Below are positions 55,685-63,646 of a stretch of 64,000 nucleotides of DNA, piece by piece. The DNA is from Bacteroidia bacterium. Lineage in GTDB: Bacteria; Bacteroidota; Bacteroidia; B-17B0; Aurantibacillaceae. The stretch's first letter is position 1; each line of letters opens with the position of its first letter. Location of the stretch: NCBI GenBank assembly GCA_016787785.1, contig JAEUTO010000006.1, positions 620,001 to 684,000 of the forward strand, given 5' to 3'. Made by a program: the position numbers and the translations under genes. Below the pieces are notes generated by a model. The model made no database searches and was not told where the DNA came from. It saw nothing but the letters and a program-made list of their open reading frames with translations.

Positions 55685-56914
55685 CTATACGTTACAATTT
55701 TGCGCACACACCCAAGCGGTACTCCAGGCACTTTGAAAATTAAAACCGCCGGTAATACCATCAATATTTAATACCTCTCCGCAAAAAAATAAGTTTGGTA
55801 CCAGTTTACTTTGCATAGTTTTAAAATCTATTTCTTTCAAATTAACGCCACCACAGGTTACAAATTCTTCTTTAAAAGTAGTTTTGCCTTCCATTTTAAA
55901 TTCGCTGTTACAAAGCTGTTCGGTTAATTTATTTATTTGCTTGTAACTTATCTCGGCCCAGGGCTTAGTGTTATCAATAGTTGCTGAGTTACATAAAAAC
56001 TCCCACAACCTTTTTGGAAGATCAAATAATGGGTTTGTATGTGGAAGTGCCTTGTGTTTTTCTTTTTGAATTTGTTTTAAAACAACATCTACCTCGTTTG
56101 GTTTTAACGGAAATACCCAGTTCACAAAAATGCCGGCACTATAATGTAACTCATAAAACTCTTTTGCAGCAAATGCCGAAAGCTTTAGAACGGCAGGGCC
56201 GCTCAAACCCCAGTGAGTAATTAAAACCGGCCCGCTATAATTTAATTTAGAGCCGGCAATTTTTACCTGTGCGTTTTGCACGCTAATTCCTTGCAGATCT
56301 TTTTTTATTTCCTCGTGAGGTAAATTAATAGTAAACAAACTTGGAATCGGCTCATCAATTACGTGACCAAGATCTTTAATTATTTGATACGCAGAAAGTT
56401 TGTTGTGCCCTCCCAGCGCACAAATAACAGCGTCTGCCGAATAGGTGTTACGATCGGTATTTATTATAAAAAGGTTTTCTTTTTTTTGGATGGACAAAAC
56501 ATCACATGACGTTTTTATTTCAATACCAAGTTCTGAGGAAAGCTTTAAAAAAAGATCAACTATGGTTTGACTGCTGTTGGAGTAGGGAAACATTCTGCCA
56601 TCTTCCTCAGTTCTTAAAACAACGCCTTGTTGCCGGAACCATTCAATAGTTTCTGTTACACTAAATTTTGAAAACACTTGTTGTAACTCTTTATTTCCTC
56701 TCGGATAATTTTTTACCAGTTCTGAATTTTCAAAACAATGATGAGAAACATTGCACCTGCCGCCACCCGAAACCTTTACTTTTGAAAGTAATTTATTTGT
56801 TTTTTCTAAAATGGTAATAGCGTAATTTGGTTGGCGCATGGCTAAATTAATAGCTGCAAAAAAACCTGCTGCGCCTCCGCCTATTACAATTATGTTTTTT
56901 TTTGTTTGAATGAT
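55685..56914 (-). CDS. HI0933/BaiN-like FAD-dependent oxidoreductase, probable ATC/ATT start
   Basis: From the first ATG (56839) the protein would be 384 residues and start MRQPNYAITILEKTN, without the FAD-binding motif. In frame upstream is NIIVIGGGAAGFFAAINLA, the required Rossmann GxGxxG. The frame is closed by the TAG at 56915-56917, which is also the MnmD stop, leaving only ATC (56914) or ATT (56911) as plausible initiators (409 or 408 aa). The rest is typical: KVKVSGGGRCNVSH, ALGGHNKLS, and the C-terminal FFCGEVLNIDGITGGFNFQSAW. It sits immediately after mnmD in the same frame. Confidence 0.85.
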   Translation of the reverse strand: MIQTKKNIIVIGGGAAGFFAAINLAMRQPNYAITILEKTNKLLSKVKVSGGGRCNVSHHCFENSELVKNYPRGNKELQQVFSKFSVTETIEWFRQQGVVLRTEEDGRMFPYSNSSQTIVDLFLKLSSELGIEIKTSCDVLSIQKKENLFIINTDRNTYSADAVICALGGHNKLSAYQIIKDLGHVIDEPIPSLFTINLPHEEIKKDLQGISVQNAQVKIAGSKLNYSGPVLITHWGLSGPAVLKLSAFAAKEFYELHYSAGIFVNWVFPLKPNEVDVVLKQIQKEKHKALPHTNPLFDLPKRLWEFLCNSATIDNTKPWAEISYKQINKLTEQLCNSEFKMEGKTTFKEEFVTCGGVNLKEIDFKTMQSKLVPNLFFCGEVLNIDGITGGFNFQSAWSTAWVCAQNCNV

Positions 56915-57583: not shown

Positions 57584-59836
57584 TTATTTTTTCTTTTTAC
57601 TGTAAATTAAAAATAACAGAACCGGTAGTAAAAAAATATCAGCAAGTACAGCAATTATTACTGTTATACAAATTAAGAAGCCAAAATAAAATGTGCTTTG
57701 AAAATCACTGGTCATAAGTGTTACAAAGCCACCTAATAAAATAAAAGTGGTTAAAATAATGGGTTTACCTGTTTCAAAATAGGTGCGCTTAAAGGCATAC
57801 ATTAAACTTTTGCCATAGCCTAATTCAATTTTCAATCGCGAAATAAAATGTATGGTATCATCGGTTGCTATGCCAAATGCAATACTAAAAACTAATGAAG
57901 TTGCTGCTTTTAATTCAATACCGGCGTAACCCATTATGCCGCCAATAATAACTAATGGTATAACATTTGGTAATATAAAAACCAGCACCATTCGCCAGCT
58001 GCGATGAAGAAAAAATGTAAGTATTCCAATAACTAATAACGAAAATAAAAAGCCCTGTGTCATGTTATTTACCATATACTCGTTATTTCTGTCAATTAAA
58101 TGAGCAGCTCCTGTAATTTCGAATTGTAATAAATTGCTGTTCACATTTTTTTCTATAAAGGCAATTAAATTAAGATTGTGTTGGGTAGCCTGCAAACTTC
58201 CCATGTCCCTGATCTTCGCACTGATCCTGGTCTTTAAACCATCTGTGGTTATTAAACGTTTTACATCCCTGTTCTTTTTATTATTCTTTAATTGTTGTGA
58301 AATTGGCTCGTAATCTTCACCGCTTGGAAATTTTAAACTATAATCATTGTTAGAATTTTGATAAATAGATTTTACTAAACTTGAAGGGGACAGTAAAAAA
58401 CCTGCATCATATTCTTTGCGAATAAATTCATCTACTTTATTTAATTCTGTTATTACCTCGTAATCCCAAACCGATCTGTTCTTGTCTTTTACCGTAATTA
58501 ATATTTCAAAAGGTCTTACACCACTGTAGTTCTTATCAAAGAACATAAAATCCTGTTTTATTTTTACTTTATCGCTGAGGTCTTCCAACAAAATATTATT
58601 TACTCTTATTTTGGTGATGCCAATTACAGATAGGATAAGAATAACGCTTGTGATGACCAGTATTGTTTTTTGATGCCTGAAGATCCAGAACAAACCTGTG
58701 CGCATTAAATTATGGGTGCGGTTATTATTGCCGTGTACAGTAACCAATTTTTTTGGCGTAAAAAAATACAATAAAGCCGGAAGTAAAGTATAGGTTAATA
58801 TAAAGGCTATGGTTACGCCAACGGAGGTATAAATTCCAAATTCTTTTATCGGTTTTATACTTGAAAATAGTAGCGATAAAAATCCTACAACGGTTGTTAG
58901 CAGAGTTAAAAAGGTTGGGAAACCAACCTCTTTTAAGATCAGCGGATAGATTTTTCCACGATCTGTACCTTTTGCTAATTCCTCAAAATACTTCGAGAAA
59001 AAATGCACAACATCACTCATACCCGCAATAAATATCATTGTAGGCAACATAACCGTCATAATATCTATCGATTTACCGCAGAGTTTCATTATTCCTAATG
59101 TCCATAAAATAGAAATAAGTACAATTACAACCGGCACGGCTATGCCATAAAGGCTTCTAAAACTGAACCATAAAAAAAGTACTATTACAACAAACGATAA
59201 ACAAATAAAAACAATAAATTCTTTTTGCAGATTTTTGAGATATACGTTTTGAGCAAAGATCCTTCCAACAAAGTGGATCTCATCAAAATTAAATTCTTTT
59301 AAAGTGCGTTCAATACCGGTAGCCAACGAATCACTTTTTAGTTTGGATAAAAGATCATCTGTTTTTATGTAAATACTGATCGATTTTGCATTGAGCGGAA
59401 AAAACGAGCCTACTAAATGGCTAGACTGATAAATGTTTATGCTATCTTCTTTATAAAGTTCTTCGTCCTGAAAATGCAGAACACTAGTTTGCACCGGCAC
59501 CAAACCTCCAAGAGAAAGGGTTTTTAAGTTAGTGGGTGACGTTACTCTTTGAACATATCTTAAGCGGGCCAATTGTTTTGTAAGGCTGTCAACTTTTAAC
59601 AGGAAATCCTTTTTAAAAATGCCTTTATTATTTTCTACCGCAACAAGGGCAAACTCGTTATCGTACTCAAAGGTTTTGCGGTAATTATTATAAACCTCTA
59701 ATTCGTGGTCTTCGTTTGGGAAAAAAGCCTCAAAATCATAATCAAACTTAATGTTTTGGAGCTTGTACACGCAGAAAAGAGAGAATACAAGAACAAAAAC
59801 AATTATTATTAAATTATATGTTTTTTGATTTCTAAT
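57584..59836 (-). CDS. RND-superfamily exporter (MMPL-like), probable ATT start
   Basis: From the GTG at 59770 the protein is 728 residues but begins inside the first periplasmic domain (KLQNIKFDYDFEAFFP), without transmembrane helix 1. In frame upstream is RNQKTYNLIIIVFVLVFSLFCVY, a classic first helix preceded by basic residues; the frame is open to a TAA at 59855-59857 and has no ATG/GTG/TTG. ATT at 59836 gives 750 residues. Two sets of membrane helices flank soluble loops (for example GIMKLCGKSIDIMTVMLPTMIFIAGMSDVVHFFSKYFEE and FGIATDDTIHFISRLKIE), the RND arrangement. Substrate unknown. Confidence 0.88.
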   Translation of the reverse strand: MRNQKTYNLIIIVFVLVFSLFCVYKLQNIKFDYDFEAFFPNEDHELEVYNNYRKTFEYDNEFALVAVENNKGIFKKDFLLKVDSLTKQLARLRYVQRVTSPTNLKTLSLGGLVPVQTSVLHFQDEELYKEDSINIYQSSHLVGSFFPLNAKSISIYIKTDDLLSKLKSDSLATGIERTLKEFNFDEIHFVGRIFAQNVYLKNLQKEFIVFICLSFVVIVLFLWFSFRSLYGIAVPVVIVLISILWTLGIMKLCGKSIDIMTVMLPTMIFIAGMSDVVHFFSKYFEELAKGTDRGKIYPLILKEVGFPTFLTLLTTVVGFLSLLFSSIKPIKEFGIYTSVGVTIAFILTYTLLPALLYFFTPKKLVTVHGNNNRTHNLMRTGLFWIFRHQKTILVITSVILILSVIGITKIRVNNILLEDLSDKVKIKQDFMFFDKNYSGVRPFEILITVKDKNRSVWDYEVITELNKVDEFIRKEYDAGFLLSPSSLVKSIYQNSNNDYSLKFPSGEDYEPISQQLKNNKKNRDVKRLITTDGLKTRISAKIRDMGSLQATQHNLNLIAFIEKNVNSNLLQFEITGAAHLIDRNNEYMVNNMTQGFLFSLLVIGILTFFLHRSWRMVLVFILPNVIPLVIIGGIMGYAGIELKAATSLVFSIAFGIATDDTIHFISRLKIELGYGKSLMYAFKRTYFETGKPIILTTFILLGGFVTLMTSDFQSTFYFGFLICITVIIAVLADIFLLPVLLFLIYSKKKK

Positions 59837-59873
59837 GAGCGCAAATTTACGTACTTATAAGTAAATAAAAACT

Positions 59874-61579: not shown

Positions 61580-61611
61580 AAGCAAGCTTGTTGTTAGGCT
61601 TGCTTTTTTTT
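61580..61611 (+). terminator. Rho-independent terminator of the P5C dehydrogenase gene
   Basis: AAGCAAGC and GCTTGCTT form an 8-bp stem with a TTGTTGTTAG loop followed by a T run. Confidence 0.9.
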
Positions 61612-61684
61612 ATGCCATAAAAAGTATTAGTTTGAAGGGTTTTATTTTCCGATATTTGATCAGAAACCACAACAGTAGAAAAGC

Positions 61685-63646
61685 ATCAAAAATATTTTTA
61701 ACATATTATTTATTTTTTTAGCTAATTGTTTTTTTTGCCAAACTTACCTTGACACCGTTGCGGGTAAGATAAAAGAAGCAAAGAGTGATAGTATAAAAAT
61801 AAACATCATTTATAAAGCTTCGATTGCTACAGAAAAATTAAAACAAGATCAGCTGGATTCGCTATACAATTTGATGCTTGAAACCGGTAAAAAGTCCGAT
61901 AATAAAGCTATGCTTGCCTATGCGCTGGTGCAACAAGGCAGATGGCACCATATCCGAAAAGAACATAGTCAGGCACTTGCAAAACATTTCGACGCTTTAA
62001 AAGAAGCAGAAAAAATAAATTATATGTATGGCCGTGTGATTGCACATAATCGTATTGGTGCAGTTTACATGGATGACAAGAGTAATGATCTTGCCATTAA
62101 ACAGTACCATTATTCGGTGCCGCTTGCCCTTGCGATAAATGATAGCGATGACCTTTCTGAAAACTATTCTGCATTAGGAACAGCTTATACAAATAAAAAG
62201 GTCTACGACTCGTCTTTGTTCTATCACCATAAAGCGCTTGATATTAGGTTGAAGAAATCAAGCAAAAAAAATCTGGCAAATACTTACAATAATATTGGTT
62301 TGGTTTACAAAGGCCTTAAAGATTATGATAAGGCCATAGATTTTTTAAGTAAGGCTTTAGAAGTAAGATTCGAGATAAAAGACAAGCGTGGTATTGCAGG
62401 AGCAAAAATAAATATCGGAAATGTTTTAAATCTTAAAAAAGATTATAACAAGGCGTTAGAGTATTTGCATCAGGGTACCGATCTTGCTTATGAAATAAAA
62501 TACGGAGATTATTATTGCAACGGTTTATTAGGAATAAAGAACTCCTATTTTGGGTTAGAAAGATGGAAAGATTGCTGTGTCGCATGGGATATCTATAAGC
62601 AGGCCGCTGATTCTGTGAAGACAGAAAAAATAAAAAAAGATATTTTGGAGTTGGAAACAAAATACGACAGCGACAGAAAAGATACTGAGCTTAAATTAAA
62701 AGAAGAGCAGATCAAATTTAAAACCGAACAAAATTCTCAACAAAAAATTCTAATAATTGCGTCGTGCATTGCTTTGTTAATGGCTTTGGTAGCTGTTTTC
62801 TTTATTTATAGAAGTTTTAGGTTAAATAAAAAGAATGCGGTACAGCTGGCATTTAAAAATCATTTGATCGAAGAAAAGAATAAAGAAATAACAGATAGTA
62901 TAAATTATGCCCGTTTAATTCAACAAAGTTTATTGGCATCCGAATCTATGCTTGATAACAATTTAAAAGAGCATTTTATTTTATACATGCCTAAGGATAT
63001 TGTAAGTGGCGATTTTTACTGGGCCTCTGAGACAAATGAAGGGTTTTTATTAGCCTGTGTAGATTGCACCGGACACGGCGTGCCCGGCGCATTTATGAGT
63101 TTAATTGGTAAAGAAAATTTAGATAAGGCCATTGTAAAATCAAACAGTCCTAAACAAATTTTAAGCGAGTTAAATAAAGGCGTTAAAAGATCTTTGAATC
63201 AAAATAGTCAGGGCAGTAGTAACCGTGATGGCATGGATGCAGCAATAATTAGAATTGAAAAAGGCAACAATGCGGTTTCAAAAGTTTATTATTCGGGTGC
63301 AAACCGTCCGTTGTGGATCGTTAGAAAAACTACAGGCGCTTTGGAAGAAATAAAACCAACCAAGCAGGCAATAGGTGGTTTTACAAATGATAACCAGGAA
63401 TTTGAAGAACATGAATTAACTCTTAACGAGGGTGATATGATCTATATCTCAACAGATGGTTATGCTGATCAATTTGGAAGTGATAAGAACAAGAAGCTAA
63501 CTACCAAACGTTTTAAAGAATTATTGATCTCTTTGCACGCATCAAAAGCGCAAGAACAAAAGCAGGAACTGGAAGCTTTTTTTACGAGCTGGAAAGGAAA
63601 AAGCGAACAATTAGATGACCTGTTAGTAATAGGTATAAAGACATAA
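61685..63646 (+). CDS. TPR-SpoIIE (PP2C-type) sensor phosphatase, probable ATC start
   Basis: The first TTG/ATG (61871) begins inside the TPR region. Upstream, in the same frame, lie a signal peptide (KNIFNILFIFLANCFFCQ) and further TPR-type sequence. The frame is closed by a TAG at 61676-61678, and ATC at 61685 is the natural start (653 aa). TPR repeats run to about 310, a membrane span follows at about 354-376, and a PP2C/SpoIIE phosphatase fills about 432-653: metal-ligand SGDFYW (Asp443), ACVDCTGHGVPGAF (Asp460), YISTDGYADQF and LDDLLVIGIK. It probably converts an envelope signal into dephosphorylation of an anti-anti-sigma-like partner. Confidence 0.9.
   Translation: MKNIFNILFIFLANCFFCQTYLDTVAGKIKEAKSDSIKINIIYKASIATEKLKQDQLDSLYNLMLETGKKSDNKAMLAYALVQQGRWHHIRKEHSQALAKHFDALKEAEKINYMYGRVIAHNRIGAVYMDDKSNDLAIKQYHYSVPLALAINDSDDLSENYSALGTAYTNKKVYDSSLFYHHKALDIRLKKSSKKNLANTYNNIGLVYKGLKDYDKAIDFLSKALEVRFEIKDKRGIAGAKINIGNVLNLKKDYNKALEYLHQGTDLAYEIKYGDYYCNGLLGIKNSYFGLERWKDCCVAWDIYKQAADSVKTEKIKKDILELETKYDSDRKDTELKLKEEQIKFKTEQNSQQKILIIASCIALLMALVAVFFIYRSFRLNKKNAVQLAFKNHLIEEKNKEITDSINYARLIQQSLLASESMLDNNLKEHFILYMPKDIVSGDFYWASETNEGFLLACVDCTGHGVPGAFMSLIGKENLDKAIVKSNSPKQILSELNKGVKRSLNQNSQGSSNRDGMDAAIIRIEKGNNAVSKVYYSGANRPLWIVRKTTGALEEIKPTKQAIGGFTNDNQEFEEHELTLNEGDMIYISTDGYADQFGSDKNKKLTTKRFKELLISLHASKAQEQKQELEAFFTSWKGKSEQLDDLLVIGIKT

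Follow-up and report, generated by a model that had tools for sequence, protein, structure and literature searches.

An ATC codon as the probable start of a TPR-SpoIIE sensor phosphatase gene in an uncultured Bacteroidota genus, and candidate ATT, ATC and ATA starts in other genes of the genome

A TPR-SpoIIE sensor phosphatase gene in the window (the whole 64,000-nucleotide stretch of Bacteroidia bacterium DNA that was analysed) lacks a usual start codon (ATG, GTG or TTG) at the N-terminus of the protein that it encodes, and carries at that position an ATC codon that is conserved, together with the N-terminus, in related species. The best explanation, and in our judgement a likely one, is that translation of the gene begins at AUC 61685 with fMet. 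The parts of the locus, all on the forward strand, are as follows.

61580-61612, +: terminator-like hairpin and T run 3' of pruA, separating pruA from the SpoIIE gene; also present in G018 and G020
61641-61662, +: TTTATTTTCCGATATTTGATCA, common to G018 and G020; probable promoter with a TAHHTTTG-like -7 box, one mismatch (consensus from PMC6847099)
61676-61678, +: in-frame TAG that bounds the TPR-SpoIIE open reading frame on its 5' side
61685-61687, +: ATC, the proposed initiation codon (AUC decoded by initiator fMet-tRNA)
61685-61741, +: predicted signal peptide, (M)KNIFNILFIFLANCFFCQ
61685-63646, +: proposed coding sequence, 653 aa (signal peptide, TPR sensor, transmembrane helix, PP2C-type SpoIIE phosphatase)
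61871-61876, +: TTG ATG, earliest usual start codons in the frame
62273-62488, +: best match to TPR_12, residues 197-268
62747-62809, +: probable transmembrane helix, ILIIASCIALLMALVAVFFIY
63041-63640, +: SpoIIE phosphatase domain (Pfam PF07228), residues 453-652

The open reading frame extends from 61679 to 63646 (+), and its first usual start codons, TTG 61871 and ATG 61874, lie 64 codons past the TAG and 62 codons past ATC 61685. Reading of the frame bears out the first-pass annotation, which had reported that the stretch between the TAG and 61871 contains no ATG, GTG or TTG and encodes a signal peptide: the stretch translates as KSIKNIFNILFIFLANCFFCQTYLDTVAGKIKEAKSDSIKINIIYKASIATEKLKQDQLDSLYN, comprising a signal peptide and the first part of the sensor, and ATC AAA AAT ATT opens IKNIFNILFIFLANCFFCQ, a typical signal peptide. 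The position of this signal peptide directly after ATC AAA supports a start at AUC, as does the recurrence of the near-cognate pattern in other genes. The TPR and SpoIIE matches both exceed the curated Pfam cut-offs (PF13424, 82.1 bits; PF07228, 72.2 bits), which identifies the product as a TPR-SpoIIE sensor phosphatase. The genome contains dozens of TPR-SpoIIE paralogues, for example in a cluster at C6:277000-294000, and 198 tblastn matches to the sensor protein; for one paralogue (C14:344111-346264), the start likewise seems to be ATT.

Among 332 open reading frames in the first 464 kb of the genome that were read, the SpoIIE gene has the longest stretch from stop codon to first usual start codon (median 4 codons, next longest 41), and among 972 open reading frames in 1.26 Mb only four have a longer one, namely prfB, a known programmed-frameshift gene, and three other near-cognate candidates. 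By codon frequency alone, 64 codons free of a usual start codon have a probability of about 0.055; gap length alone is therefore not decisive, and what is decisive is the conservation of the protein sequence and of the ATC codon in relatives.

Strong matches to the N-terminal two thirds of the SpoIIE protein were found in 12 of the 40 genomes of the genus that were searched, and the first DNA alignment of the locus was read for three rows, the window, L013 and L015. The counterpart of codon 61685 is ATC in G018 and G020 (followed in both by AAA CAT ATT), ATT in G006 and TTG in G014, and is ATG in none. In G018, there is no ATG, GTG or TTG between the in-frame TAA and the signal peptide, or in the other two frames past their last stop codons. 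In G020, an in-frame ATG lies ten codons 5' of the ATC, so the ATC need not be the start in that species, and the ATC is common to three species only, which counts against the proposal. An ATG is found three codons 5' of the aligned position in G006 (ATG ACG CCT ATT) and in G025 (ATG AAC AAG GTC ATT); this ATG was probably the ancestral start, which the clade of the window's species has since lost.

The substitutions in codons 1-62 follow the pattern of a protein-coding sequence (dN 0.29 and dS 1.82 between the window's species and G020). Across the first 20 codons, third-position identity is 0.95 between the window's species and G018, 0.90 between the window's species and G020, and 0.95 between G018 and G020, as compared with 0.65, 0.67 and 0.77 for the same pairs in the neighbouring pruA (binomial P for the excess 0.002 with G018 and 0.019 with G020). 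This third-position conservation supports a functional initiation region, the sample being small and the AT-rich codons having few alternatives. The TPR sensor part (61745-62900) is strongly divergent, with about 58% amino acid identity and third positions near saturation, as compared with 90% for the SpoIIE domain and 93-98% for neighbouring genes, and with a far less divergent signal peptide; the sensor module looks as if it had been swapped out or were evolving fast.

These comparisons bear directly on the possibility that translation starts at TTG 61871 or ATG 61874 and that the signal peptide region is a relic that is no longer translated. These codons are the earliest usual starts in the frame. 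However, ATG 61874 occurs in the window's species alone, G020, G018, G006 and G014 having Ile at the aligned residue, and TTG ATG is not kept in any of those four; protein-level conservation extends through the region upstream, where dN is far lower than dS; and G018 would need yet another start, at codon 22. We consider a start at 61871 or 61874 very improbable.

The first-pass annotation had offered near-cognate initiation, a recent start-codon mutation or a sequencing error as explanations, and had proposed inspection of the homologous codon in relatives. The codons found there favour the first explanation and speak against the other two. The orthologue in G025 (L016, G025:C107) is broken by seven in-frame stops, which implies that the gene is dispensable there, and dispensability in some species would be compatible with a sequencing or assembly error or with a very recent start loss in an incipient pseudogene. 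Against this, the same ATC occurs in three species whose pruA genes are only 65-77% identical at third positions, the reading frame is intact across 653 codons and conserved downstream, and many other genes show the same signature. Error or recent start loss is thus exceedingly improbable as an account of the missing start codon.

In a further alternative, translation would begin out of frame, at a +1-frame TTG 29 bases 5' of the ATC, and pass into the main frame by ribosomal frameshifting or by transcript slippage on the seven-T run at 61713-61719. In the window, the +1 frame reads (M)IRNHNSRKASKIFLTYYLFF from that TTG as far as the T run. In G018 and G020, however, the +1 frame has no ATG, GTG or TTG after its last stop codon, yet both have the same ATC and T run, and slippage would leave the other near-cognate genes unexplained; we regard it as extremely unlikely. 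A programmed frameshift of the prfB type was rejected for the SpoIIE gene on the same finding in G018 and G020.

Two further possibilities are that translation starts at another non-standard codon nearby (AAA, AGC or ATT 61694) and that TAG 61676 is read through. Further Ile codons are indeed at hand (ATT 61694 and ATA 61703), and in L013 and L015 an in-frame mini-ORF, ATG AGA AAA TAA in G020 and GTG AGG AAA TAA in G018, lies about 48 bases 5' of the ATC, before the stop that bounds the open reading frame. But a start at ATT 61694 would deprive the signal peptide of its needed Lys, the window's species has no in-frame mini-ORF start before the TAG, and the ATC is the only near-cognate codon with a following Lys that is common to the three species. 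Both possibilities are highly unlikely.

The SpoIIE gene sits downstream of pruA, with the terminator-like hairpin in between. Judged from the promoter-like block at 61641-61662, the SpoIIE mRNA probably has a 5' untranslated region about 20 nt long. The leader, CCACAACAGTAGAAAAGC, contains no Shine-Dalgarno sequence, either strong or extended, and nothing stands out in RNA structure at the start (z-scores -1.07, -0.25 and -0.66). Bacteroidota hardly use Shine-Dalgarno sequences. All three species with ATC have A at positions -3 and -6 relative to it; in Flavobacterium, A at these positions favours initiation (PMC6847099). A-3 and A-6 are not found together in every other near-cognate candidate of the genome, which counts against the proposed start. 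A variant initiator tRNA was considered and rejected: the genome has an ordinary one, with anticodon CAU, three G-C pairs in the anticodon stem and a mismatch at 1-72.

AUC, AUU and AUA each depart from AUG at the third base, and starts of this kind are known to be counteracted by IF3. We propose that the 30S subunit would be positioned with no Shine-Dalgarno sequence, on a leader that is A-rich and mostly unstructured and in which A-3 and A-6 are favourable, and that the initiator fMet-tRNA (anticodon CAU) would pair with AUC with the third base mismatched. The presence of A-3 and A-6 in all three ATC species, the ordinary initiator tRNA and the absence of notable leader structure argue for this route. 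The product would begin MKNIFNILF..., would be exported by its signal peptide and would comprise a periplasmic TPR sensor, one transmembrane helix and a cytoplasmic PP2C-type phosphatase. Since such weak starts work poorly in other bacteria and are discriminated against there by IF3, expression of the SpoIIE gene is likely to be low and linked to the level of IF3. For a signalling protein, low dosage and coupling to IF3 would make sense, by analogy with Streptomyces sigR (PMC5472188).

The gene for IF3 itself, infC (L112, G000:C6:392401-393078, -), starts with ATC, 5 nt after a strong Shine-Dalgarno sequence, GCGGAGG. Throughout the genus (L112, L113-L141), infC has ATC or ATT after GCGGAGG or ACGGAGG, and no usual start, in nearly all genomes read; outside the genus it has mostly ATA, ATC or ATT, with a few ATG or TTG. 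The weak start of infC is thus the known habit of this gene (PMC5472188, PMC13009471), combined here with a Shine-Dalgarno sequence in a phylum that hardly uses one.

Two other genes in the window also appear to have near-cognate starts.

55688-56914, -: TIGR00275/HI0933-family flavoprotein; TAG followed by ATC ATT CAA ACA AAA, with the FAD-binding GGGAAG motif before the first ATG
57587-59854, -: MMPL-family transporter; ATT (59834-59836) AGA AAT CAA

For the flavoprotein, no usual start, and ATT, ATC or ATA at the N-terminus, was found in the window's species, G020, G018, G034, G025, G006, G001, G007 and G013, and a usual start codon in the stretch was found in G021, G003, G014, G033 and G030 (G061, in which the open frame extends further upstream, was left out). 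Orthologues from other families have ATG, GTG or TTG before the FAD motif in all 15 read (G057 and 14 others). The usual start is therefore missing in 9 of 14 genomes in the genus and in 0 of 15 in the outgroup (Fisher P = 0.0002, the related species not being independent). Almost every MMPL transporter orthologue of the genus has ATT, ATC or ATA before (R/K)(N/T)Q, and most lack a usual start upstream (G003, read out of frame, was not counted); a search for outgroup orthologues returned distant matches only.

The survey covered 1.26 Mb (972 open reading frames) with a coding score and then a further 0.4 Mb (326 open reading frames). By coding score, prfB, which serves as a control, was the strongest match among the 972 and the SpoIIE gene the second; others had N-terminal features before the first usual start. 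In total, about 15 candidates with ATT, ATC or ATA at the expected N-terminus were found in 1.66 of 4.6 Mb (36% of the genome; about 1300 open reading frames), corresponding to about 1.2% of open reading frames of at least 120 aa. The SpoIIE gene, which had been taken for a single odd gene, is one of these.

infC: ATC AAC AAC
SpoIIE gene: ATC AAA AAT
flavoprotein: ATC ATT CAA
MMPL transporter: ATT AGA AAT
GT2 glycosyltransferase: ATC AAA AAA
ABC ATPase: ATC TTA GAG
DUF2807 lipoprotein: ATC AAA AAA
TPR protein: ATT AAA AAA
another TPR-SpoIIE protein: ATT AAT CAG
two PorP/SprF proteins: ATT AGT AAA and ATA AAA ACA
beta-lactamase-like protein: ATA AAA AAG
TonB-dependent receptor-like protein: ATT CTG AAA
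lepB and bamD: exact codon less certain

For some of these genes, the choice among several nearby near-cognate codons is uncertain. Profile matches nevertheless extend upstream of the first usual start: position 1 of the TIGR00275 flavoprotein profile falls on residue 8 (first ATG, residue 26), the type IX secretion PorP profile (TIGR03519) begins at residues 9 and 15 (first usual starts, residues 76 and 24), the BamD profile (TIGR03302) at residue 12 (first usual start, residue 32) and the signal peptidase I profile at residue 21 (first usual start, residue 44). The matches indicate that several of these proteins begin upstream of that start. Signal-peptide genes that lack a usual start number 7 of 348 in this genome and 2 of 74 in G001 (both after by-eye removal of matches with no true signal peptide or with an internal usual start) and 0 of 87 in other Bacteroidota, a contrast in the expected direction in numbers too small to prove a habit restricted to the genus.

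We tentatively suggest, as a possibility slightly less probable than its opposite, that start recognition is relaxed in this uncultured genus, such that AUU, AUC and AUA serve as ordinary, conserved starts in about 1% of genes, or tens per genome, among them the probably essential envelope genes bamD and lepB, mostly without a Shine-Dalgarno sequence; the pattern may reflect either an altered initiation apparatus or simply the tolerance of many weak starts. ATT, ATC and ATA starts would escape standard gene finders. If recognition is relaxed, current gene finders would truncate such proteins throughout the lineage, and annotated N-termini are probably wrong, as are the signal peptides and localisation deduced from them. 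Known bacterial genes with AUU, AUC or AUA starts are few and mostly under IF3 control, and a genus whose species retain such starts in many unrelated genes, in a phylum with little use of Shine-Dalgarno sequences, would offer a natural setting in which to study start-codon fidelity and the benefit of weak starts.

In domain order (signal peptide, TPR, transmembrane helix, SpoIIE), the protein matches the TPR-SpoIIE (PP2C) sensor phosphatases of Bacteroidota, and the gene differs from theirs only in its start codon. That codon belongs to the same class as the start of infC, a third-base mismatch to CAU: infC has an IF3-autoregulated near-cognate start, AUU in E. coli and AUC in Streptomyces (PMC5472188), and AUA in S. 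aureus (PMC13009471), and here also has ATC. However, infC here has the strong Shine-Dalgarno sequence GCGGAGG, whereas the SpoIIE gene, whose product is an envelope signalling protein, lacks any such sequence. A further likeness is to Streptomyces sigR, which has a GTC start and is repressed by IF3, as a signalling gene held low by a non-standard start and misannotated by gene finders (PMC5472188), but sigR has GTC rather than ATC and belongs to another phylum, and its regulation has been demonstrated experimentally, where that of the SpoIIE gene is inferred. Near-cognate starts are also found in E. coli pcnB (AUU) and in S. aureus cvfC1 (AUU) and ccpN (AUA), and the S. aureus AUU and AUA starts are conserved and give about 10-30% of the AUG level in reporters (PMC13009471). 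The S. aureus cases depend on extended Shine-Dalgarno sequences, unlike the SpoIIE gene, and comprise two examples besides infC (PMC13009471), as against about 15 candidates in 36% of the present genome. Since near-cognate starts are already known from infC, pcnB, sigR and ccpN, the SpoIIE case belongs to a known kind; what is unusual is, for the SpoIIE gene, the missing Shine-Dalgarno sequence and, for the genome, the number of such genes and their conservation.
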